A stretch of DNA of 64,000 nucleotides from Apteryx mantelli. Taxonomy: Eukaryota > Chordata > Aves > Apterygiformes > Apterygidae. Position 1 is the stretch's first letter, and the number at the start of each line of letters is the position of its first letter. Positions 6,001 through 28,643 of this stretch are shown here, one piece after another. The stretch covers positions 52,180,275 through 52,244,274 of the forward strand of contig NC_089979.1 in assembly GCF_036417845.1 (NCBI RefSeq), given 5' to 3'. Both the position numbers and the translations under genes were made by a program. A model generated the notes under the pieces. It ran no database searches and had not been told where the DNA came from. It was given only the letters and a program-made list of their open reading frames with translations.

Positions 6001-6508
6001 ATGCAACTGAATGCATGTAAAAACAGTAATATCAATGAAATAAAACAAAACCACGAAAAAAACCAGATACCATCAACATGCAGGAAACTGTGAAATATAA
6101 TATGGCAGTATTATTCTAGGGAAATAATCTGTTCTTGGAGACTTGCTAAACAGCATATGCGTTGACAAAGAAAGATGGGATGAGCTAAGGAGCTTGACAA
6201 CTTTGAGGATATCGTTTCCCCTAATTTGTTGAATACTTTCACAGCTAGATTTTTTTGGTTTGAGATTTTTGGTAGTGACCTAATAGATAGCTTGAACTTC
6301 TCAATCATTTGAACAGGAATGTGTTTTGTGAGACTTACTACAGTGCTAATATATACTAAATATTTTAAGAATTGCTTTATGTAGCTGACTTCCAAATTTA
6401 CATGTCTTATTTTTTGAAGTGTACTGCAAGCATCAAAGTAGTTTTCCTCCCTCACCTGTCCTACCCTAAACATTGGGGATATGTTCTTCATCTTCAGGAC
6501 GGGAATTA
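1..6508 (+). other. ESCO1 intron sequence, no gene recognised
   Basis: AT-rich DNA with only short chance open frames. Since ESCO1 is split here, this should be intron between the zinc-finger exon and an upstream exon. The only exon-like structure I noticed is 4905-4993 (see findings). No repeat family was recognised besides simple runs. Confidence 0.6.
3881..3894. repeat. C14 homopolymer
   Basis: Fourteen consecutive C bases in an AT-rich intron; its true length may be uncertain because of sequencing. Confidence 0.95.
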
Positions 6509-6535
6509 CAGGCATACCTCGGAGATATTGCGGGT
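6509..6535 (+). repeat. Left terminal inverted repeat of the Tigger element
   Basis: CAGGCATACCTCGGAGATAT begins the element and pairs imperfectly with 8803-8829. A second subterminal copy of the AATAAAGCGA motif follows, as in Tigger1. Confidence 0.85.
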
Positions 6536-6748
6536 TCAATTCCAGACCACCTCAATAAAGTGAATGTCTCAATAAAGCGAGTCACATGGATTTTTTGGTT
6601 TCCCAGTGCATATAAAGTTATGCTTACACTATACTGTAGTCTATTAAGTGTGCAATAGCATTATGTCTAAAAAAAAAAAAGTACATACCTTAATTAAAAA
6701 ACACTTTATTGCTAAAAAATGCTAACCATCATCTGAGCCTTCAGCGAG

Positions 6749-8416
6749 TCATAATCTTTTTGCTGATGGAAGGTCTTGCCTGGATGTTGATGGCTGCTGA
6801 CTGATCATGGTGGTGGTTGCTGAAGGCTGGAGTGACTGTGGCAATTTCTTAAAATAAGACAGCAATGAAGTTTGCTGCATTGATTGACTCTTCCTTTCAC
6901 AAAGGATTCCTCTGGAGCATGTGATGCTGTTTGATAGCATTTTACCCACAATAGAACTTCTTTCAAAATTGGAGACAATCCTCTCAAACCCTGCTGCTGC
7001 TTTATTAACTAAGTTTATGTAATATTCTAAATCCTTTGTTGTCATTCAACACTGTTCACAGCATCTTCTCCAGGAGTAGATTCCATCTCAAGAAACCACT
7101 TTCTTTGCTCATCCATTCAAGTTTTATCATGAGATTGCAGCAATTCAGTCACCTCTTCAGGCTCCACTTCTAATTCTAGTTCTCTTGCTATTTCTACCAC
7201 ATCTGCAGTTACTTCCTCCACTGAAGTCTTGAACCCCTCCAAGTCATCCATGCGGGCTGGAATCAACTTCTTCCAAACTCCTGTTAGTGTTGATATTTTG
7301 ACCTCCTCCCATGAATCACGAATGTTCTTAATAGCATCTAGAATGGTGAATCCTTTCCAGAAGGTTTTCAATTTACTTTGCCCGGAGTCATCAGAGGAAT
7401 CACTATCTATGGCAGCTATAGCCTTACGAAATGTTTCTTAAATAATAAGACTTGAAAGTTGAAATTACTCCTTGATCCATGGGCTGCAGAATGGATGTTG
7501 TGTTACCAGGCATGAAAACAACATTAATCTCATTGTACATCTCCATCAGAGCTCTTGGGTGACCAGGTGCATTGTCAATGAGCAGTAATATTTTGAAAGG
7601 CATCTTTTTTTCTGCACAGTAGGTCTCAACAGTGGGCTTAAAATATTCAGTAAACCATGTTTGTAAACAGATGTGCTGTCATCCAGGCTTTGTTGTTCCA
7701 TTTATAAAGCACAGGCAGAGCAGATTTAGCATAATTCTTAAGGGCCCTAGGATTTTGGGAGTGGTAAGTAAGCATTGGCTTCAACTTCAAGTCCCCAGCT
7801 GCATTAGCCCCTAACAAGAGAGTCAGCCTGTCCCTTGAAGCTTTGGAGCCAGGCACTGATTTCTCTCCAGCTATGAAAGTCCTAGATGGCATCTTCTTCC
7901 AGTAGAAGGCTGTTTCGTCTACATTGAAAATCTGTTGTTTAGCGTAACCACCTTCATCAGTTCTCTTAGCTAGATCTGGATAACTTGCTGCAGCATCTAC
8001 ATCAGCACTTGCTGCTTCACCTTGCACTTTGATGTTATGGAGACGGCTTCTTTCCTGAAATCTCGTGAACCAACCTCTGCTAGCTTCAAACTTTTCTCCT
8101 GCATCTTCTTCACCTCTCTCAGTCTTCATACAATTGAAGAGAATTAGGGCCTTGCTCTGGATGAGGCTTTGGCTTAAGGGAATGTTGTGGCTGGTTTGAT
8201 CTTCTATCCAGACCACTAGAACTTTCTCCCTATCAGCAATAAGGCTGTTTCGCTTTCTTAGCGTTTGTGCGTTCACTGGAGTAGCCAGTGGAAGTCGAGC
8301 TTTTGGCCCATCTCGGCTTTCAACATGCCTTCCTCACTAAGCTTCGTCATTTCTAGCTTTTGATTTAAAGTGAGAGACGTGGGACTCTTCCTTTCACTTG
8401 AACACTTAGAGGCCAT
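6749..8416 (-). pseudogene. Tigger transposase pseudogene (CENP-B/TIGD-like DDE transposase)
   Basis: The start ATG is at 8416-8414 (MASKCSSERKSPTSLTLNQK). A deletion near 8282 removes part of the N-terminal helix-turn-helix. The main open piece (8276-7647) carries [15 protein letters not shown] (CENP-B-type DNA binding) and [20 protein letters not shown], with the first catalytic Asp. A one-base insertion near 7658 shifts frame. Downstream, in other frames, [14 protein letters not shown] (about 7590-7550) and [11 protein letters not shown] keep the second and third acidic residues. Further pieces are 7371-7117 ([20 protein letters not shown]) and 7045-6749 (SFKK-type C-terminal motif, [10 protein letters not shown]). 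A functional family member would be about 590 residues in one frame. Confidence 0.9.
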
Positions 8417-8802
8417 TGTGGGGTTATTCATTGCCCTAATTTCAGTGTTGTTGTGCCTCAGGGAATAGGGAGGCCTGAGGAGAGGAAGAGAGATAGGGGA
8501 ACGGCCGGTCGGTCGGTGGAGCAGTCAGAACACACACAACGTTTATCAATTCAGTTTGCCGTTTTATATGGGTGCGGTTAATGGTGCGTCAAAACAATTA
8601 CAATAGTAACATCAAAGATCACTGATCACAGATCACCATAACAGATATAGTAATAATGAAAAAATTTGAAACATTGCGAGAATTACCAAAATGTGACACA
8701 GACACATGAAGTGAGCACATGCTGTTGGAAAAATGGCCGCCAATAGGCTTGCTCGACGCAGGGTTGCCACAACCTTCAATTTGTACAAAATGCAATATCT
8801 GT

Positions 8803-8829
8803 GAAGTGCAATCAAATGAGGTATGCCTT
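8803..8829 (-). repeat. Right terminal inverted repeat of the Tigger element
   Basis: GAGGTATGCCT is the reverse complement of the left end. The outermost base is T instead of G. TA follows at 8830-8831. Confidence 0.85.
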
Positions 8830-10480
8830 TACTAGATTCAGTTCAATAGGGGTCTTAAGGTAGTTACCATGCATCCTTCCTCCTCAACTGCCTTTTTCCC
8901 TTTCTCATGTACAAACCCTTGAAATGCAGCATATTGGCCACATGGGCAGCTTGTTTTGAACTATGTTGCTGCTTTAAAGGAAGACTGAAGGTAGAATAAA
9001 ATATGCTGGTTTAGATTTTTACACCTTTGGAAACCTCATCTTATGTTGGCTTTGCAAACCCTTTTGTAGGGATTCTCTCTCATTTTTTCTTTTGGAGAAT
9101 TAGTGTATTCCTGTTTTTCTTTCTGTATACAATAGGAATGTTTAATTTGCATATCAATAATAGAGCAGTGACTTTTCAGGTTCAGCTTCTTTCTTCTTGC
9201 TAAGTTCAGTATATGTGCTCTTAAAGAGAAATTGGAGTCTTTGAATTTACCTGGCCAAAGCAGTTGCACCTCTGTTCTCCTCTTGGAAAAGAAACCAGTA
9301 TCTACATGTTGGGCTTCGCTGATGACTGCTTGAAATAAGTTGCTGTTGTATGGAGAACTGAGCTGTCATCTAGCTTTTAGATGTACTTAAGCATATCTTT
9401 GAAGATGTAAGAAATGATTTGTAAACATCTTGCTGTGTTGCAGAATGTTTTTTCCTGTAAAGTAGACTTTTTGACTATGAATATTTCAGCCATTAAAAAA
9501 TAAAGTTAAATTTAGGTGATCTGTTTTCATGCAATTTGTGCACGTGCAATTTGTGCACTCTAATCAATTTCCTTAAAAGAACTCAAGATTTCTTTTGCTT
9601 ATCTAGTGACCTGTTTTACGGTATAAAATAACTTCCTGTTTTTCTGTTACATGTGTAATGTGTTAAAATAGATTAAAAATGACATTAAATGTTGCTTATA
9701 TAAACTCTATTTCCAAATGTAGTTAAAGGAGGGGGAAAAAAAGTTTGACTATTAAGCCGTAACTTAAAACATGCCTTTTTGGCTAGAGACTTCAGTCTAA
9801 CTGATATTCTTTTTGCTCTTTGCAAGAGACTTGAGACTTTTCTGTGGATTAGTTGCAATGAAAGAAACCCCTACACTTGACACTCCGTTCCATATTAGGC
9901 ACTGATTCCTCAGTCTGTGCATGCTTCCTAATTAATAACACTGTTTTAATGAACAAATTACAAAGCAATATGTACTGAGTAGCACCCTTAATTTGATAAT
10001 GTTTGGTTATAGAATAGGAGGATAACCTAAAGGGTCAAGAGTAAAATTAAATAATCTTCTATTTGTATTGTAGCTGCTGTCAGGTATCTGAAAAATAAAA
10101 GTAATGAAACTCATGCACGTAAAATACGGTAGTTAACTGTTTAGGTTTGTGATTAGGAGTTCAGATATAAATCCTGAGAGTATATTGAATGAGAAGCTTT
10201 TCATCAGTAAAACTTCTGTAAAAGAGTGAAGAGAGAAATGAAAAAACAGCACTGATGGCCTTGAAATATTTGGTGTAACTGATTTTCATAAAAGCCTAAA
10301 ATATCATCATCAAACATTGCAGATGTATTATGAGCCTCATGATTATTTCTCTAACTTTTTGTTTTGTATGGTATCCTTCCAAACATTCAGGAAGGCATGG
10401 CTCACCTTCAAGAACCTCACAGTCAAAGGACAGAGAGCAGTAGAAAAATGGGGAAAAGGGAAAACCAAATAGTGTGGGAC

Positions 10481-10916: not shown

Positions 10917-11048
10917 GATGCAGGACAGAAGAGATTTGGTGCTATTTCCTGTAATATTTGTGGAATGCTTTATACTGCATCAAATCCAGAGGATGAAACC
11001 CAACATCTGCTCTTTCATAACCAATTCATAAGTGCTGTAAAATATGTG
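10917..11048 (+). CDS. ESCO1: ESCO1 exon encoding the zinc finger
   Basis: This 132-nt exon holds 44 complete codons, DAGQKRFG through ISAVKYV. It is preceded by a T-rich tract and TAATAG and followed by GTAAGA. It holds both cysteines (residues 12 and 15) and both histidines (30 and 34) of the finger. Both ends are phase 0. Confidence 0.95.
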
Positions 11049-17000: not shown

Positions 17001-20000
17001 GGTGTTTAAAGTTGGAGAGCAGTAATCCTTGCCTGAATTTTTTTTGAGAACTTTTCTAACATCATCAAAATGTGGGTCACGTTCCGCAAATGGCACTGTT
17101 CTTCTACCTGAGTATTGTAACACTGCTGTTTGCTGTTGTTTACGTTCAGACCATAATATATATAAAATGAAATAATATACCCCTCTGTGTTGGTATTTAG
17201 TTCAACTGCTACTGAGCAAGAAAGGCAGGATTGAAATGGTATCTGTGTTGTGATCCTTGTCATCCTGGGTGCTGAACTCAAAAAATAGATCCAGGGCTAG
17301 CAGCAAGCAGATAAAATTTCTAGAATTATTCTTAATGTTTTGTTTGGGGTAAAGGGGTAAAATCAGCGTGATCAAAATGAAATACAGATCAAGTATTATA
17401 ACACCTAAGTTTGTCTTTTTTTTGTGGTAGTATATTTGTCATTCCTTCAGTGCCAAATTCCTTGTTTGGTCTTTAGTTGAATGTTACTTTTGTGGGAAGG
17501 TACAGATTTCAATGAGAATTATTCCATCGATATTGTTTCTTCAAAGGCTTTTTTATTTAAAGTTGCTTTGAATAAGACTTGTTGATCAGCCTTTTTAGTG
17601 GCTGAAGTTACTTCTGCATTCAGTATTTTTAGGTCCCGTCAAAGCAACTTGAGTTCTAATATCTCTACCAGTCCCATCTTACTAGATTTAAGTGGCTTTT
17701 TTTGTTTTGTTTTTTTCCATGCAGGTACTGCTCATTATTCACCACGAGTGTGGATCTGAAGAAGAGTTAATTACCTCTATTTTTTTGAGTATGTTTAACT
17801 TCAGATACACACAACGTAGCCTCCTTCCCCATTAGATTCTTAGAAGGTAGTTATAAAATTTTTTATAGTATCCTTCTTGTGACTTTAATAGTTATGATCA
17901 GTAACAAAATAAACTATTCCTTACATTTTGGGCAACTGCATGCCAATCAGTTCATTTAGAACCTCCTGGAGGTCTTTCGCATGCCAAACTTTAAAACTGA
18001 GTGTGTATTTGTGGAGGTAACTATGTTAAAAAGAAATCTTTTAATAAAATTTAGGATTTTTTTCCATTCACTGGACTCTGGAAAATAAATACTACATAGA
18101 TTTGGAAATCAGTTAGGTGAGCTGAGTTTGCTATTCCTGCTTTAAAATTCAGTTTGCACTGCAGTCCTGGGGGAAAGAAAATATAATTGGGAAATTATAA
18201 GACACTTTCACAAATTGTTTTTAGATATAGTTAGGCTATTGTATCCTATAATAAATAAGATCATATATCTGTTGTGTTCATTTAGAAAAGCTAGCTGAAG
18301 TTTCCTTCACTAGCTAAGCAACTGCTAAATAGTTTTAAAGTCTTTGCATAAGTTCAGTGTTTAGAACAATAATATGTAACTAAATATGTAAAAATACATC
18401 TTGTATATGCTTTAGATAAATGTTTGTTTTATTTAGGGGTGGAAAAAGGAGAGAATTTTGGCTGAATACCCTGATGGGAAGATAATAATGGTTCTTCCTG
18501 ATGACCCAAAGTATGCACTTAAAAAGGTATGGTGGCAAGTATACCTCATTTTGCTTGATATTTTAATGGGAATGTCCATAGTACGTTTTGTATAATTTAC
18601 ATAAGAGTGAGGAGCTTTTTCCACAAACAGGTCAGACATTTCACCCTTAGGCACTGTTACTGACTTCATAGAAAGGATGGGTCTGAGCTGGAGTGGAAGA
18701 CAGGAATGGGAACAGCATCAGCCAGCTGACTTATATTTATTTTTAACATGCTTGCTTGCATGTCTGTTAAGTGTTTTATGTAATATAAACTTTCTATTGT
18801 ATTTAAACATATTGAAATATATTGATGTTGTTATACAGCACAAATACTACACCATAAGAAAATTCTCTCTAAATGACATATGATTTTATCATAAAAACAG
18901 ATTTAGGTGAGAAGTGGTTTCAAAGACATCTAGTCCATTCCGTTGTCCAAAATCGGATCAGATGCGTCATAACCAGAGCTGATAACTTTTAAAAACTTCT
19001 ACCTAACTTCTAACTTCTTCAGACTCCATTACAGTGCTTCATTATCCTTAACATTAGGAAGTTTTCCCTAAATGTCCAACTAAATTTCTGTACTGCAACT
19101 CAGGCTCCTTAGTACAAGTCATATCTTCTATAGCTACAGAAAACATCCCTCTTTTCCTCTTTGTAACAGCTTTTATGTGCTTGAACAGACTGTGGTTGTT
19201 TAGCTCTAAGAAGGTTGAAGGGCTGTAATTTTTTTTTTTTTAAGTTTATCCTCTTAAGTAATGTTTTATAGGGCTCTGATTGCTCTCATGCTCTCCTCTA
19301 GATGTTTTCCATTTGTGCCAAGTCTCCTGTCTCTTTTGAAACTTTTTATCTACAACTGGGCGGAGTACATTAGTGAGGGCTTAGGGCAAAAGGATACTTT
19401 GGTGTCTTGTTGGCTGGTCAGTGTTTGTAGCCCTTAATATGGCATTAGGCCCCTCCTCACCCCTTGGGTAGCATAATGTCGATTCATATTTAACTGGTGA
19501 TTTGTTGGGACCAATAGATGTTTCTTATAGTACTACTGTTAGCCATTTATAGCCATCCTGTATTTTTAGAGTTATTCATCTTCAGGACTTTACTGAATAC
19601 TGCAACAAAAATTGTTCCAAGTATATTTTAGTGAGCACACTACCTTCTCTAATATCACAGATTTAGGTTGTATTCTATCAAGAATACGGATGGGGATACC
19701 TTCATGAATGTTACTGATCAACCTTGTTCTCTTGAAACATGATTCTGGGCACATGAAGGAGAATAAGGCCATTGGATGCAAGGGTAAATTATGCCTGACC
19801 AACCTGATTGTCTTCTATGATAAAATGACTGGATTTATGAATGAGGAGAGAGCAGTGAATGTCATTTACCTTGACTTTAGCAAGGCTTTTGATGCTGTCT
19901 CCTGCAATATTTTTATATCCAAGTCAGGATGCTGCAGTCTGGATGGGCAGACAACTGAAAGCATAAAAACTTGTTTGAATGGTTGGACTCAGTGGTTGAG

Positions 20001-23000
20001 GGTAGTGGTTAATGGATTGAACTTTACCTCAATGCTGGTAACAGTTGCAATACCAGACAGGTGTATACCAGGACCTGTCCCGTTTAACATCTTTATCAAT
20101 TACCTGGAGGAGGTGACAGAGTGCACTCTTGTCAAGTTTGCAGATGGCACCAAATTGGGGGAACCAGTCAATAGGCTCAGGGGCAGGACTGCCGTTCAGA
20201 GGGACTTAGGCTTTAAGAACAGGTCAACAGGAATCTCATGAAGTTTGGCAAGGACAAATGCAAAGTCTTGCACTTGGGAAGGAAAGGCACCTTGCAGTGA
20301 AGCAGGCTTGGGGACTGACTTGCTGGGGAGCAGCTCTGCAGAAAAGGCCCTGGGGGCTTGTGCCAGGAGATGGTACATAAGCCAGCAGTGTGTCCTGCAG
20401 CAAGGTGGGTTATTACAGCTTCCTGGCTGCGTTAACAGGAGCACAGCCAGCAGATTGAAGGGAGTGATTTTTCTTTTTTTTCCTGCCTTTGCTTGGCGCT
20501 TGTTAGACCCCATCTGGAATACTGTGCCTAGTTTTGGCCCCACCAGTACAAGAAAGACATTGCCAAACTGGAGTGAGTTCAGTGGAGGGCCACCGGGATG
20601 GTCAGGGCTGGAGCACTTGCCCTGTGAGGAGAGACTGGGGGACCAGGGCCTGTTCAGCCTGGAGACTGGACGGCGTCAGAGGCACCTAAGAGCAGCCACC
20701 CAGCACCTAAGGGGAGGTTATGGAGAAGACGGAGCCAGGCTTTTCACAATGATGCATGGTGGGAGGATGAGAGATAACAGACATAAGTTGAAAAAAGAGA
20801 CATTCAGACTGGATGTAAGGAAAAAGTTTTTCACTGTGAGGACAGCCAGGCCAGGGCACAGGTTGCCCAGAAAGATTTTGTAGTCTCTGTCCCTGGAGGT
20901 TTTCAAGACCTGACTGGGCAAAGCCCTGAGCAACCTGGTCTGATCTCACAGCTGACCATGCTTTTGTGTAGGAGGTTTGGCTAGAAACCTCCTGAGATCC
21001 CTTCCTATTTGAATTATTCTATGATTCTATGGTTTGTGCTCCAGATGGTATAATTCAGAATATTTTTTTGCATCCTTGGTTACACTGCATTTATGTATTT
21101 TAATGTGTTTCTAGTTGTCCTGAAAGCAACAGGCTATAAGGTTAAAAATTAAATGCCCCAAGTCAAGAATTTGAATTGATTCCCAAGACAGCTCTTTCTG
21201 CACTATGAAGTGACTGAAGTGGGTTTTCATTAGACTAGCATAGGATTTTCCAAGTTAGTGTATTGGAAAGTACAGTTTTTCTTCTTATAATATTTAATGC
21301 AGATGTACACTGAATTCATAGCAAGTGCTTTATCTAAGTTTATTTCTCTAATGTTGCTACCTTAATTTTAGTATGATATTAATATAAAGTATGAATATAG
21401 CTGCATATTTTACTAAAAATTTTTACTAAAAGGGCTAAGAAAAAAATTACTTAGAATCTCTAAATGGAGCAGAGGGAAGCAAGACTAGCAAATCAAGTCA
21501 TTTAGGGCAGTTCTGTGTATGAGAACCTTCAGTGTTGAGAGAAGCTACACTTGTCAGCCCTGTGGATGGCTGACACTAGTACTGTATTACAAAGGTAACT
21601 ACCACATGGATTAAAGAAGCTTATGCCACTTAACATACAACGTAGGAAAGGCTGCCTTGTTTCTGTCTGGTATGAGTGATGGGATAGTAAAAGCTGCTCC
21701 AGTGACCAGTTATAGGTACAGGATTCCCCCTGTAAAAATCTCAGCTCATGCATAAGCTTTTATTTACATTCACACTGAAGTTCATACTACTTCTAGTTTG
21801 TGCTAACCTTTCTAATATTAAACATTGAAATTGTTTTTAGTTTGGTCACTCTTTGCAAGCTAATGGAAGAGTGGAAAGCTTGAGGAAAGAGGGAGCAGTT
21901 ATTCATTCCCTTTCAATAAATGCATTCATGATCTCTTTTCTAGCTTCCTTGCATTGCACTTGCTATTATCTGCTCAAAACTTTTAATGGAGGAATTGTTT
22001 CAAGACTTTAAAAATAACAAACAAAAAACCTTCAGCTAGCCTACTTTAACTTTTGACATAGTTCTCATTTATTGGCTAGAGTATCACACTTTCATCTACA
22101 TTCTCTCTGTTAGCCTTTGACTGATAGAAGTTTACACTCAATGGAGGCTGATATAGAGGTATCTACTCTTTTTATTTCCAGCTAAGCATCATTTGAAGAA
22201 CCCTGTGGACCTATTTATTGCAGGTTACTCAGGATAATCCTTAACTTTTGGAATAGCTTTCAGTGTTCCAAATACTGTAGTGTGTTTTTGTAAATCTGTA
22301 ATTTCTATGTATATATAACAAATGTATATTTATACATGTAATTCTCATACAATATTTAAACTTATTTTGACAGGTTGAAGAGATTAGAGAGATGGTAGAC
22401 AATGACTTGGGATTTCAGCAAGCTCCACTTATGTGTTACTCTAGAACTAAAACTCTTCTTTTTATTTCTAATGACAAAAAAGTTATTGGCTGTTTAATTG
22501 CAGAGCACATCCAGTGGGTAAGTGATTAAATTGGAGAAAAGTACTTTGTAAAAATGTCAGTGCTTGGTGGCAGTCGTCTTCAGATATTCTGAAACAGCAG
22601 AATTATTTGAGTTCAACTTTAGCCATTTAGCAAATAAGTAATCTGTGTACTCCTCCTTCGGAGAGGAAAACGTGGTAGACCATTCTGAAATGTAGTTGCT
22701 TGTTTTAGTATCGTTGACCTTGAGCTAAAAGAGATGTATGGTGCAGCCAGTTGGCTCAGACCAGCTCAGGTAAGAGCTTGCTATAGCTGAATGGTAGAAG
22801 TTTTCCTTTGTGCTACTTAGGCTACTTCTGGTGGTGCTCTTGCTTGTTGACAAGCAGGTTGAACTCCCTTCCTGACAGAAATCCCAGCTGGAAGGAAGAA
22901 GTGGCTACTTCATAGGATTATTGAGCTGAGTCACTGAGGGATCAAACAACTCCACAGCTAGCCTGAAGCAGAGAGCAGAGGTGTGTGGTGGAGAGCAGGG

Positions 23001-26000
23001 TGAGGAGTAGGGCTGCCGCTTGCAGCAGTAAAAACTGTTGTCATAACTCTGTCACCTATTCTGTAGGTTCCCTTAAACTGTGGTAATTCCTACTGTCCAT
23101 TAGGATTAGCAGACAAGAAGCAAAATAATCTTTGTCAAAAAGAGAAAGATCAAGGAAAACACTTAACAATAGGTGGTAATAAGAATTGGATTTTGTTTGT
23201 TGCTATTTTAAATCAGATACACCTTAGAGGGTGTTTTTTGGTTCAATTTCTTTCCTTTTATCATCTGTTCTGATTTTGAAACTGTTAAGAGAAATTAAAT
23301 TAGGCACAGTTATGCAATCTTTTTGGTAATGCATTTTAGAATGTAGATATGTTTAACAAACATTTTTACCAAATAGTTATTTTGTTCAATCACTAGCGAT
23401 GCTGTTATAAAGTAACAAATATTTTGACATCACTTGCAGGGCTACCGAGTTATAGAAGAGAAGGTTCCAGAAGTTAGTTCAGAAAATGAAAAAGTCATTT
23501 TTGAAAGACAGAAAGCATGGTGCTGTTCTACTTCTCCAGAACCTGCTATTTGTGGGATTAGTCGAATATGGGTGTTCAGCATGATGCGGCGAAAGAAAAT
23601 TGCTTCTCGGATGATAGAGTGTCTTAGGTAATGTTAAAAAGTCATTTCCTCGGTTATATTGGTTTTAGAGGAACCCCAGTCCAAGACATTTATTGTTTTA
23701 TTTTGTGTGTATCAATCTTGTATTTTTCTGGTGAAACTGGGAATGTAAATTTGAGCACAGTTAACGGTTCCAGTTTTACGTGGAGTTCAAAAACTAACGT
23801 CAGTATTCTGAAATGGCTTGCCTTTAATAGAAATCTTTCTGCTAAGTGCAATTGTAATGAGTCAGTCTAGCAGACTGCGAATGAGCTTGGGTAAATTTCT
23901 CTTAGGTAATTACGAGCGAAGGAAATGAGACTGTCTTTAGTCAAAGTGTTTGAGATTACCAAGGGGTAACTGTGACCTCATCATTGGCCAAATCTCTGTT
24001 CCTTAGAGGTAGAAAGGGAGAAAGAGGGGAAAAAAACAGTGCATAGACCCATTTAATATAGTCTGGTGGACTACAGCTCTACTTGGGTGGTATTTCTTAA
24101 CAGTTTTTTTTCCTTTATCCAGGTCCACTGAACCTTATGAGAGGTTTTTAATTTCCATGGAGCTTTAGTAGCTAGTGATGAGTGTATTTGACTGAATACT
24201 AAGTACTTGATTCATTAAAGGACTCAAACATTTGCAGTACTGTTGAGACAAATATTAAAATGTGGAATCTCCAAACATTTTTTCACCTTCCACCCCTGCC
24301 TCTGGAAGCTCCTAAAGGCCAAGGTGCTTAGGTTTCTTGCAGTGAAATTTCCGGGAAGTCTAAACACCTGTTTAGACTAGGCAAGTGTTATTACTGCTGG
24401 CTCTCGGGTTTGTGCAGGGTGCTTGGCCAGCCCCGTCTGGTTGATCTCTGGCACAGGCGTCCTGTGACTGCCGAGCCTCATGCTCTTGGGCATGTGGAGG
24501 TCTGGTAAAGCTGTTCCACTCTGTAAAATGCATCCACCTGGCTGATGGCACCAGCTAGAAAGTTTGTATCAGATTACCTTCCATCTGAAATACCAGCTGT
24601 AAAGCTGTATTCAGATAGGCATATTAATTTGATAATTTGGTTTTATTTTCAGAGGCTGATTTTTATCTGGGTATTCAGTTGCTTCCTACAAACTATTTCT
24701 AAAGGAAGGATTTCTTCCCCAAAACAATGCCCATTTCCCCCCAACTTCCCCATTTTGAGAATGTCTGCCCCATTTCACTCAAGCTTTCATAGCACACCTG
24801 CAGTCACAAAAACCCAATCAGTCTAAGAACCTTGCAAGATCATCTTCTAATAATAAATATAGTAATGAGAAAACAGTAATGCTAGTAATTTAAAAAGTAC
24901 TTTGTTCCTATTGTCTTTTCATCAAGATTTAGTGGAGATGTCAATATTTGTTAGAGGTTGATAGTTACTCTGCAAGTACCTCTAGGCTTATTTTACAGGA
25001 ATTCAAAAACCTGTCTTTAATGGGAGCTGCATCTGTTTCTGAGGATCAACATTTCCTCCTCCTCTTCCTCCAAATCAAGGTCTTAAAGTCCGAGATCAGT
25101 TTTTAAAATTTGTTTATGTAGCCATCCTCAAAAGTGCAATGGTATCCCTGATTCTCTCATCTTTCTTCAAATAAGGAAAAAACATACATATATAATTGCT
25201 TGAAAAAATTAAGCAAAAATAAATTTTCCTTTTCCTATAATTAATCATCCTGAAAGTGTGTCACTTACGAATTATGTAGTATGGTTGTGTTCTTGGATGT
25301 TCTAAATTAATCCAAAGTGCAATCTTGTCCAAATGTCATATGTTTTTTCAAACCAGGATTTTGAGATTTTGGTCTTTTCAGCCCCCTCTAAACTTGTAGT
25401 TTACCCCTCTAAACTTGTAGTTTACCCAAGTTTTCATTTCTGGTAGTTGTAATCATAGTGCATAGTGCATTATCTTACGTATAAAGAAATAGCTGGAACT
25501 AGTTGGATATATATATATATATTTTTTAACTCTGAACTCCTGATGCAACTTGCAAGAAATTGCCCTGTGCAAACATTCTTCTAAAATATCATATCAAACA
25601 GAATCACAGAATCGCTGAAGTTGGAGGGGACCTCTGGAGATCATCTAGTCCAACCCCCCTGCTCAAGCAGGGTCACCTAGAGCACGTTGCACAGGATTGC
25701 ATCCAGGCGCGTTTTGAATATCTCCAGAGAAGGAGACTCCACAGCCTCTCTGGGCAACCTGTTCCAGTGCTCTGTCACCCTCACAGTGAAGAAGTTTTTC
25801 CTCATGTTCAGATGGAAGTGTCTGTGTTTCAGTTTGTGCCTGTTGCCTCGCATCCTGTCGCTGGGCACCACTGAAAAGAGTCTGGTCCCATCCTCTTGAC
25901 ACCCTCCCTTCAGATACTTGTACACGTTGATAAGATCTCCTCTCAGCCTTCTCTTCTCCAGGCTAAACAGGCCCAGCTCTCTCAGTCTTTCCTCATAGCA

Positions 26001-28643
26001 GAGATGCTCCAGTCCCCTAATCATCTTTGTAGCCCTTCGCTGGACTTGCTCCAGTAGTGCCACATCCCTCTTGTACTGGGGAGCCCAGAACTGGACACAG
26101 TACTCCAGATGTGGCCTCACCAGGGCTGAGGAGAGGGGGAGAATCACCTCCCTCAACCTGCTGGCAACACTCTTCCTGATGCAGCCCAGGATACCATTGG
26201 CCTTCTTGGCCACAAGGGCACATTGCTGCCTCATGCTTAACTTGGTGTCCACCAGCACTTCCAGGTCCTTCTCAGCAGAGCTGCTTTCCAGCAGGTCAAC
26301 CCCCAACCTGTCCTGGTGCATGGGGTTATTCCTCCCCAGGTGCAGGACCCTGCACTTGCCTTTGTTGAACTTCATGAGGTTCCTCTCCGCCCACCTCTCC
26401 AGCCTGTCCAGGTCTCTCTGAATGGCAGCACAGCCCTCTGGTGTATCAGCCACTCCTCCCAGTTTGGTATCGTCAGCAAACTTGCTGAGGGTGCACTCTG
26501 TGCCTTCATCCAGGTCACTGATGAAGAAGTTGAACAAGACTGGACCCAGGACTGACCCCTGGGGGACACCACTAGCTACAGGCCTCCAACTAGACTCTGC
26601 GCCGCTGATCACAACCCTCTGAGCGCTGCCATTCAGCCAGTTCTCAATCCACCTCACTGTCCACTCATCTAACCCACACTTCCTGAGCTTCTCTATGAGG
26701 ATGTTATGGGAGACAGTGTCGAAAGCCTTGCTGAAGTCAAGGTAGACAACATCCACTGCTCTCCCCTCATCTACCCAGCCGGTCATTCCATCAGAGAAGG
26801 CTATCAGATTGGTTAAGCATGATTTCCCCTTGGTGAAGCCATGCTGACTACTCCTGATCACTTTCTTGTCCTCCACATGCTTGGAGATGGCCTCCAGGAT
26901 GAGCTGCTCCATCACCTTTCCAGGGATGGAGGTGAGGCTGACTGGCCTGTAGTTTCCTGGGTCCTCCTTCTTGCCCTTTTTGAAGACTGGGGTGACATTG
27001 GCTTTCTTCCAGTCCTCGGGCACCTCTCCTGTTCTCCATGACCTTTCAAAGATGATGGAGAGTGGCCTAGCAATAATGCCTGCCAGCTCCCTCAGCACTC
27101 GTGGGTGCATCCCATCGGGGCCCATGGATTTGTGGGTGTCAAGTTTGCTTAAATGATCTCTAACTCGATCCTCCTCGACCAAGGGAAAGTCTTCCTTTCT
27201 CCAGACCTTCTCTCTTGCCTCCAGGGTCTGGGGTTCCTGAGGGCTGGCCTGAGCAGTAAAGACTGAAGCAAAGAAGGCATTCAGTAACTCTGCCTTCTCT
27301 GCATCCTTCGTCACCAGGGCACCCACCCCATTCGGCAACAGGCCCACATTTTCCCTAGTCTTCCTCTTGCTCCTGATGTTTTTGCAGAAGCCCTTCTTGT
27401 TGTCCTTGACATCCCTTGCCAGATTTAATTCCAAATGGGCCTTAGCCTTCCTCGTCGCATCCCTGCATACTCTGACAACGTTCCTATATTCCTCCCAAGT
27501 GGCCTGTCCCCCTTTCCACTTTCTGTATACTTCCTTCTTCTGGTTGAGTTTTGCCAGGAGCTCCTTGCTCATCCATGCAGGTCTCCTACCTCCTTTGCTT
27601 GACTTCCTACTCATAGGGATGCACTGCTCTTGAGCCTGGAGGAAGTGATGTTTGAATATTAACCAGCTCTCTTGAACACCCTTTCCTTCTAGGGCCATAA
27701 CCCATGGGATTCCTCCAAGCAGGTCCCCGAAGAGGCCAAAGTTTGCTCTCCTGAAGTCCAGGGTTGCGATCCTACTTAGTGCCCTGCCTCCTCCTCACAG
27801 GATCCTCAACTCCACCATCTCATGGTCACTGCAGCCAAGGCTGCCCCCGACCTTCACATCTTCCACCAGTCCTTCTTTGTTTGTTAGTACAAGGTCCAGC
27901 AGCACACCTCTCCTTGTTGGCTCCTCCACCACCTGTGTCAAGAAGTTGTCACCAATGCTCTGCAGAAGCCTCTGGGGCTGTTTGTGCCTAGCTGTGTTGT
28001 CTTTCCAGCAGATATCAGGGTGGTTGAAGTCCCCCATGAGAACCAGGGCCTGGGATCGTGAGGCTACTTCCAGCTGTCTGTAGAAGGCCTCATCGACTTC
28101 CTGATCAGGTGGCCTGTAGTAAACACCCACAACAGTGTCACCCATGCTAGCCTGCCCTTTAATCCTTACCCATAAGCTCTTGACTCGCTCTTCATCCACC
28201 CCTAGGCACAGCTCAATACACTCCAGTTGCTCTCCCACATAAACCCTTATAGAAACGCTTCTGGAACACATGACTAGATAAGGGATTAAAAGAGAGAGAG
28301 AGAGAGAGAAGCTGATGGAAACAGTTTTTTTTCGTTTGGAGTTTTTTTGTTTAACTCCAAACTTCCATGGAAAATGAAGACACAAATGTAAGGATCAACA
28401 GACCTTAAAGCATTGAGGCAAGATGACTTTCCAGGTAAGAAATACTTCTTGCATTGTTTCCTGAGAGTAATTAATTAACTTTTTCTTTTAAACAGGAGCA
28501 ACTTCATATATGGCTCATACTTAAGTAAAGAAGAAATTGCTTTCTCTGACCCTACTCCTGATGGAAAACTCTTTGCAACACAGTACTGTGGCACCGGCCA
28601 GTTCCTAGTATATAACTTCCTCAATGGACAGCATCACAGCTAA
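10917..28643 (+). CDS. ESCO1: ESCO1, C-terminal coding part (gene-level span; five exons listed separately)
   Basis: N-acetyltransferase of the Eco1/Ctf7 family. In the nucleus it acetylates the SMC3 subunit of cohesin and so helps establish sister-chromatid cohesion and stabilise loops. The five exons (10917-11048, 18437-18526, 22374-22517, 23440-23627, 28496-28643) join in frame to 233 residues plus TAA. Visible residues 12, 15, 30 and 34 form a CxxC...HxxxH zinc finger; the acetyltransferase fold follows. If the C-terminus aligns without gaps to human ESCO1 (840 aa), visible S163, E182 and D203 correspond to human S770, E789 and D810, reported as catalytically important; all three are present. 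The fragment ends [10 protein letters not shown], like the family. The paralogue ESCO2 is less likely: the zinc-finger stretch [20 protein letters not shown] is ESCO1-like and GREB1L lies next door. The N-terminal roughly 600 residues are outside the window. The last intron carries an antisense CR1 and an upstream intron a Tigger element. Confidence 0.95.
11049..18436 (+). other. ESCO1 intron (7.4 kb)
   Basis: Lies between the zinc-finger exon and the GWKKER exon. I see no further exon, no recognisable transposon and no RNA gene. Open frames are short and without family resemblance. Confidence 0.8.
18437..18526 (+). CDS. ESCO1: ESCO1 exon, start of acetyltransferase region
   Basis: This 90-nt exon holds 30 codons, [14 protein letters not shown] through YALKK. 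It has an ATTTAG acceptor and a GTATGG donor and is phase 0 at both ends. The GWKKER segment directly after the finger is conserved between ESCO1 and ESCO2. Confidence 0.95.
18905..19600 (-). mobile_element. Ancient CR1 LINE 3' fragment
   Basis: The region contains diverged but ordered CR1 tail landmarks, read as complement: CATCTAGTCCATTCC, AGGAAGTTTTCCCTAA, ACTGCAACTCAGGCTCC, CTCTTTGTAACAGC and GCTCTCCTCTAGATG. No open reading frame remains. Many indels indicate an old amniote-wide family. It sits in the ESCO1 intron upstream of 22374 and points away from the + strand CR1 next to it. Its upstream end is uncertain. Confidence 0.65.
19745..21033 (+). mobile_element. CR1 LINE, 5'-truncated, decayed reverse transcriptase and 3' end
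   Basis: Reverse-transcriptase landmarks in order are [29 protein letters not shown] (catalytic block A), [11 protein letters not shown] and FADGTKLG (the FADD active site has lost its second Asp). Shifted pieces of the CR1 C-terminus follow ([18 protein letters not shown]). The CR1 3'UTR tail comes next and ends in two ATTCTATG-type octamers (about 21017-21033), the usual CR1 terminus. One open stretch (19708-20241) survives. The element is inactive and older than the copy at 25.6 kb. Confidence 0.9.
22374..22517 (+). CDS. ESCO1: ESCO1 exon, acetyltransferase region
   Basis: This 144-nt exon holds 48 codons, from [18 protein letters not shown] to LIAEHIQW. The acceptor is TTGACAG and the donor GTAAGT; both ends are phase 0. 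It contains the [11 protein letters not shown] strand pair of the GNAT-like core. Confidence 0.95.
22518..23439 (+). other. ESCO1 intron (0.9 kb)
   Basis: Non-coding, with a somewhat GC-richer middle (about 22750-23050). No repeat or gene was recognised. Confidence 0.85.
23440..23627 (+). CDS. ESCO1: ESCO1 exon with acetyl-CoA binding core
   Basis: This 188-nt exon has 62 codons plus two bases. It has a CTTGCAG acceptor and a GTAATG donor. It encodes the [20 protein letters not shown] block, where Eco1 proteins bind acetyl-CoA, and includes the equivalents of human S770 and E789. The split AG|G codon completes in the last exon. Confidence 0.95.
25386..25427. repeat. Perfect 2 x 21-bp tandem duplication
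   Basis: The 21-bp unit (CTCTAAACTTGTAGTTTACC plus C) occurs twice without a mismatch at 25386-25406 and 25407-25427, about 170 bp from the 3' end of the young CR1. Confidence 0.95.
25507..25521. repeat. (AT)n microsatellite
   Basis: About seven AT units in the ESCO1 intron, just upstream of the young CR1. Confidence 0.9.
25600..28260 (-). mobile_element. Young CR1 LINE, 5'-truncated, ORF2 nearly intact
   Basis: The 3' end at about 25600 carries the CR1 tail octamers (CAGAATCACAGAATC on + strand). The element runs 2.66 kb and stops within the endonuclease part of ORF2, so ORF1 and the promoter are missing, as is usual for CR1 insertions. Protein sequence is of the avian CR1 type throughout. 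It lies in the last ESCO1 intron in antisense, with its 5' end about 235 bp before the last exon. An (AG)n run at 28291-28309 lies just outside the 5' break. GC content is much higher than its surroundings. Confidence 0.95.
25677..28260 (-). pseudogene. CR1 ORF2 fragment: endonuclease (partial) and reverse transcriptase
   Basis: Two open stretches share one frame and are separated only by a TGA at 27797-27795, where the family has Arg. The upstream piece is the C-terminal part of an apurinic-type endonuclease: [15 protein letters not shown], then [10 protein letters not shown] with the catalytic Asp-His. The downstream 673-residue stretch (27698-25677) is the reverse transcriptase. It includes [34 protein letters not shown] and FADDTKLGG, with all three catalytic aspartates, and ends in the C-terminal CR1 domain ([20 protein letters not shown]). 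The N-terminal endonuclease and ORF1 are missing, so the copy is not autonomous. Confidence 0.93.
28291..28309. repeat. (AG)n microsatellite
   Basis: About nine AG units just beyond the 5' end of the antisense CR1 in the last ESCO1 intron. Confidence 0.95.
28496..28643 (+). CDS. ESCO1: ESCO1 last coding exon
   Basis: The acceptor is TTTTAAACAG. The leading G completes an Arg codon, then [20 protein letters not shown] through [13 protein letters not shown], ending at TAA 28641-28643. It includes the aspartate equivalent to human D810. The exon starts only about 235 bp downstream of the 5' end of the antisense CR1. Confidence 0.95.

Follow-up and report, generated by a model that had tools for sequence, protein, structure and literature searches.

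Tigger1 has been described as a mammalian pogo transposon, of the Tc1/mariner type, from human and, as Tigger1_MNa, from the bat Miniopterus natalensis. It has TA target-site copies, short terminal inverted repeats (TIRs) and a transposase with CENP-B_N, HTH_Tnp_Tc5 and DDE_1 domains and a DD32D triad, and cut-and-paste movement with duplication of the target TA is known for pogo and Tc1/mariner transposases. Its occurrence in kiwi was published in 2016, so that part of our finding is already known: Platt et al. (PMC4971623) reported insertions in kiwi with a similarity of at least 97% over at least 92% of a bat Tigger1, and the passages concerned state that their mutation load may fit the neutral expectation and leave the choice between transfer and contamination open. 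Patchy sharing of transposons between distant animals is documented elsewhere. Reptile-mammal Tigger transfers have been reported by a study that counts Tigger in one bird species and, unlike the case below, describes no bird-mammal event in the passages concerned (PMC9219625). The AviRTE bird-nematode transfer (PMC4844689) is patchy in the same way, but AviRTE is a retrotransposon. In the RepeatMasker table of the spotted owl, 528 TcMar-Tigger pieces amount to 39,074 bp in all (PMC5629816); Tigger-like DNA of unspecified kind is therefore annotated in a neognath. A literature search on Tigger or horizontal transfer in kiwi, ratites and birds, mostly outside subscription journals, found no further kiwi case among the papers listed.

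Here we analyse a window of 64,000 nucleotides of Apteryx mantelli (contig NC_089979.1). It holds a dead, TA-flanked Tigger1-type transposon near the zinc-finger exon of ESCO1, of a family likely to have entered the kiwi-emu ancestor horizontally. It shares the features of Tigger1 listed above and differs in its kiwi host, in being a dead copy and in the residues Leu542 and Ser588 that mark the bird rows; the comparison with Tigger1 was made at the level of protein.

Results

The element occupies 2,321 bp, a length taken from its end positions, and carries its transposase on the minus strand. Its parts are as follows.

6507..6508, no strand: left TA target-site copy (direct reading)
6509..6520, plus strand: left terminal inverted repeat (arm 6507-6520, 12-mer scan)
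6509..8829, minus strand: Tigger1-type pogo element, 2,321 bp (ends, domains, transposase relatives)
6725..8416, minus strand: transposase pseudogene with four reading-frame changes and two stops, DD32D kept
7424..7603, minus strand: catalytic core piece, DDE_1 positions 76-134 (Pfam, E 1.7e-17)
7647..8276, minus strand: uninterrupted piece carrying HTH_Tnp_Tc5 and the beginning of DDE_1 (Pfam, E 1e-12 and 1e-15)
8273..8431, minus strand: N-terminal piece with the CENP-B_N DNA-binding domain (Pfam, E 1e-7)
8818..8829, minus strand: right terminal inverted repeat, one mismatch against the left (arm and 12-mer scan)
8830..8831, no strand: right TA target-site copy (direct reading)

The ends form inverted arms (6507-6520 and 8818-8831) of 14 nt including the flanking TA, 93% complementary to each other. 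Short TIRs of the pogo type are thus present, TA can be read directly on both sides as a target-site duplication, and the length falls within the span of 1018-4525 bp given for Tigger (PMC9219625). The terminal 12-mer alone is nothing special, with five matches in the window at up to two mismatches against 4.2 expected; what counts is that both ends, in opposite orientation, frame a transposase remnant. A sequence-only reading of this DNA had assigned it both termini, a TA duplication and pogo-family identity, and the arms, the TA copies and the transposase domains bear all three out. Rfam gave no match in the whole window and NCBIfam just weak IS630/IS21 matches far below the cut-offs. DNA relatives of Tigger1 were absent from viral contigs, prokaryote genome contigs, phages and plasmids, and the terminal 12-mer used as a literature query matched papers unrelated by title.

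All three domains are present, in separate pieces of a broken frame. Alignment with the kiwi protein P0001 yields five blocks separated by four frame changes, with a 7-residue gap; residues 49-71 of P0001 are unmatched, between 8297 and 8285, and stop codons lie at 7117-7119 and 6749-6751. The uninterrupted transposase frame of an intact, mobile Tigger is therefore missing, and the copy is dead. The window transposase is 89.4% identical (387/433) to the human putative transposase Q13537 (P0056), which we take to stem from the published Tigger1 consensus; the difference of about 10 percent that the sequence-only reading gave for the catalytic segment comes close to this value. Since the window copy is just 90.1% identical (493/547) to the majority of the bird transposases as well, its 10% difference appears to stem mostly from decay after insertion. 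The three catalytic aspartates are all kept, with 32 residues between the second and the third, and this DD32D arrangement is the triad given for TIGD1 (PMC7325037).

Transposase protein searches returned 1138 and 1009 relatives, of which the best 120 of each were listed. P0001, from Apteryx mantelli itself, has the best E-value among the relatives listed in the larger search. Among the matches listed, all 21 bird proteins come from kiwi or emu (one from A. mantelli, 14 from A. owenii, six from Dromaius), and the other close rows belong to mammals, the gharial, the boa Candoia and the gecko Euleptes. The sequence-only reading had Tigger1 as characteristic of placental mammals; the gharial, snake and gecko transposases belong to the same family. 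The gharial (Gavialis gangeticus) protein P0008 is 98.7% identical (448/454) to Q13537, a value that none of the 21 bird rows attains; P0001 reaches 96.5% (438/454) and the other 20 bird rows 80-94%. P0001 has an open frame of 601 aa, 96.5% identical to the bird majority, where the other bird rows reach 81-96%, and is possibly kept by selection or young. Relatives from frog, crayfish and whipworm are more distant, at 70-74% identity to the bird majority. P0087, one of the skink, fence-lizard and monitor proteins, is 60.3% identical to P0001. Four proteins of the pig whipworm Trichuris suis (P0069, P0084, P0124, P0125) are Tigger1-like transposases. P0069 was considered as a direct source or carrier and is out, being just 70.0% identical to the bird majority; it is 70% identical to the mammal majority.

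We compared founders through majority sequences built over 21 kiwi and emu rows and over 16 mammal rows, with P0056 and 14 of the 20 listed vervet rows as further references. The bat Myotis row P0051 was placed with the outgroup and not with the mammals, and P0087, P0098 and P0234 (skink, fence lizard and monitor) were left out. The bird and mammal majorities agree at 564 of 572 residues (98.6%). The bird majority is 97.3% identical (437/449) to Q13537 and 97.6% identical (527/540) to the majority of the 14 decayed vervet rows, which puts it at 97-99% to the three mammalian references; the six emu rows alone, few and partly near-duplicate, agree with the mammals at 93.9% (520/554). Single bird rows are 81-96.5% identical to their own majority, that is, 3.5-19% different from it. 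The yardstick was the catalytic domain of ESCO1, 94.6% identical (192/203) between the window and human. At the protein level, and with one host domain as yardstick, the transposase similarity (98.6%) thus lies above that of the host gene (94.6%). The case for transfer rests chiefly on a freely decaying transposase being closer between birds and mammals than a single enzyme domain under constraint.

Transposase trees were built from 48 and 26 of 61 rows, with bootstraps that had not settled. In both trees the amniote copies form a star of near-zero depth. Approximately unbiased (AU) tests left unrejected a clade of birds (p 0.53), of birds plus gharial (p 0.45), of sauropsids (p 0.50) and of mammals (p 0.43); amniotes plus frog against the rest were rejected (p 0.0145), because the frog row groups with the crayfish row. 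Among amniotes there appears to be no topological conflict, and the signal would reside in the near-zero depth of the star. A transposase tree had been proposed as a check on horizontal transfer; the star neither follows nor rejects the host tree, and the one grouping it speaks against is that of amniotes with the frog.

A residue scan of bird against mammal rows over 593 columns found two that separate them best, with best p values of 4.5e-6 and 1.3e-5 when related rows are counted as independent. Leu542 occurs in 9 of 12 bird rows, including the window copy, both kiwis and emu, versus 1 of 30 mammal rows. Ser588 occurs in 8 of 12 bird rows versus none of 25 mammal rows; boa and gecko both have Ser (2/2) and one gharial row has Pro. 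Leu542 and Ser588 are carried by the window copy, by P0001 and by several rows of A. owenii and emu. Leu542 is found in frog and crayfish too, and could therefore be an old state and no innovation of birds. A source common to squamates and birds is hinted at by Ser588.

The element lies 2.1 kb upstream of the zinc-finger exon of ESCO1. The features of the host locus are listed below.

10917..11048, plus strand: ESCO1 zinc-finger exon, the nearest ESCO1 exon found on the right side of the element (tblastn, splice sites, PDB match)
starts at 18437, 22374 and 23440, plus strand: three middle ESCO1 exons (tblastn, splice sites)
25677..28394, minus strand: CR1 frame of 906 codons, interrupted by a single stop (93-95% protein identity to Apteryx owenii rows)
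28496..28643, plus strand: last ESCO1 exon, with the stop codon (tblastn, splice sites, PDB match)

The ESCO1 exons, on the plus strand from 10.9 to 28.6 kb, were located by tblastn with human pieces as queries, their splice sites were read in the sequence, and the joined exons match human ESCO1 in the PDB. No plus-strand frame of at least 110 aa was found left of 19.7 kb; we infer that the N-terminal coding part of ESCO1 must lie to the left of the window and that the element is intronic. An insertion inside ESCO1, as the sequence-only reading had it, is thus supported by the exons on the right of the element, and its intronic position depends on the N-terminal part beyond the window. Beyond ESCO1, at 50-58 kb, the minus strand carries GREB1L exons, the two genes being arranged tail to tail; one of the GREB1L exons gave no match against the PDB.

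The CR1 frame lies within the last ESCO1 intron, about 100 bp from the last exon. Among the 120 best matches listed, its closest relatives by identity are from Apteryx owenii (94.6% over 496 aa and 92.9% over 705 aa), followed by matches of 81% over 337 aa and of 75%; the top three by score are long wood-stork (Mycteria) proteins, 62-70% identical. The frame looks young and kiwi-type, and as a host marker it makes a kiwi the likely host. CR1 is reported to have expanded recently in kiwis and to be near-inactive in emu and cassowary (PMC8665684). Another ESCO1 intron holds a CR1-like reverse transcriptase fragment on the plus strand (19708-20883), whose first part matches RVT_1 weakly. At 25383-25427, about 250 bp beyond the end of the 906-codon CR1 frame, lies a perfect 21-bp tandem repeat of 2.1 copies.

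Discussion

A majority identity of 98.6% is higher than freely decaying copies should keep by descent over 300 My, which makes horizontal transfer the best explanation. On the protein comparison it appears well supported: the claim that the family was transferred gains from the 98.6% identity of the majorities set against 94.6% for the ESCO1 domain, and the tree gives no decision on it. Descent from the amniote ancestor, with an old family surviving in birds, crocodilians, squamates and mammals but disappearing from other lineages, would account for its presence in several amniote lineages and for the bird, sauropsid and mammal clades that the tree leaves unrejected; moreover, an ancient insertion has been inferred for the TIGD genes, TIGD1 included, which are described as syntenic and widely spread in tetrapods (PMC7325037). 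We nevertheless consider such descent very unlikely, given that the majorities are more alike than a constrained enzyme domain, that the bird rows lie too close to their majority for 300 My of free decay, and that the frog falls with the crayfish. Also against it, a study found TIGD1 to be multi-copy and excluded TIGD1-like rows as akin to pseudogenes (PMC7386202). Another reading makes P0001 a host gene, domesticated and orthologous to TIGD1, with the window copy as its pseudogene. The open frame of P0001 and its closeness to the bird majority would fit, but the window copy has both TIRs and the TA copies and is thus a transposed element and not a gene duplicate, and the 14 A. owenii rows differ from one another, at 81-96% identity to the majority, as those of a repeat family would; there is hardly a chance that this reading is correct.

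Mammalian DNA misplaced in a bird contig, by contamination or chimeric assembly, was an explanation that Platt et al. could not exclude for the kiwi genome (PMC4971623). In the present assembly we regard it as extremely improbable. Both TIRs and the TA copies mark a single insertion, and the ESCO1 locus around it contains a CR1 of kiwi type, which bears out the earlier argument from a clean insertion; P0001 is listed with an 88.5-Mb contig; and kiwi and emu rows share residues that are rare or absent in mammal rows. Transfer straight from placental mammals to birds has the near identity of the majority proteins in its favour and is a less remote prospect, though still an unlikely one: the Ser588 of birds is common to boa and gecko and absent from the 25 mammal rows, the gharial protein is nearer the human one than any bird row is, and the tree gives no direction.

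Horizontal entry of the family, as we prefer to read these data, would have proceeded as follows. While alive, the element would have moved by cut-and-paste, its N-terminal CENP-B/Tc5-type helix-turn-helix domains binding the terminal inverted repeats and its DDD catalytic domain excising it and inserting it at a TA, which would be duplicated. We infer this mode from the domains, the triad and the TA copies, together with what is known of pogo and Tc1/mariner transposases. One or a few founder elements may have spread through the germ line of the birds before dying out, and the window copy, about 10% of its residues off the bird majority and with four frameshifts and two stops, would be a fossil of that expansion. 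Entry would predate the kiwi-emu split, as presence in both suggests. The source may have been a shared wave of invasion, to judge by the very similar transposases of placental mammals, gharial, boa and gecko. As a tentative proposal, which we put forward at less than even confidence, a single Tigger1 founder could have reached animals of different landmasses within a short time by way of a carrier: placental mammals, squamates, the gharial line and the ancestor of kiwi and emu. The birds would then have drawn on a reptile-type strain (Ser588) and not on mammals.

The insertions of Platt et al. (PMC4971623) are very likely of the same family and from the same host group. Our analysis differs from theirs, as far as the passages concerned go, in that transfer is favoured by a joined host locus, by the rows from emu and by comparing the majorities. 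What is new is the clean insertion in a host locus, the presence of the family in emu and the two residues separating bird from mammal rows. Surveys record few transposon transfers involving birds or mammals: of at least 975 vertebrate events, 24 concern these two groups (PMC7070016). With the joined host locus and the emu rows, the 2016 remark on kiwi becomes a testable case in which mammals, ratites, a crocodilian and squamates would all have received one founder. The insertion site in ESCO1 could serve as a marker for dating the invasion of birds.
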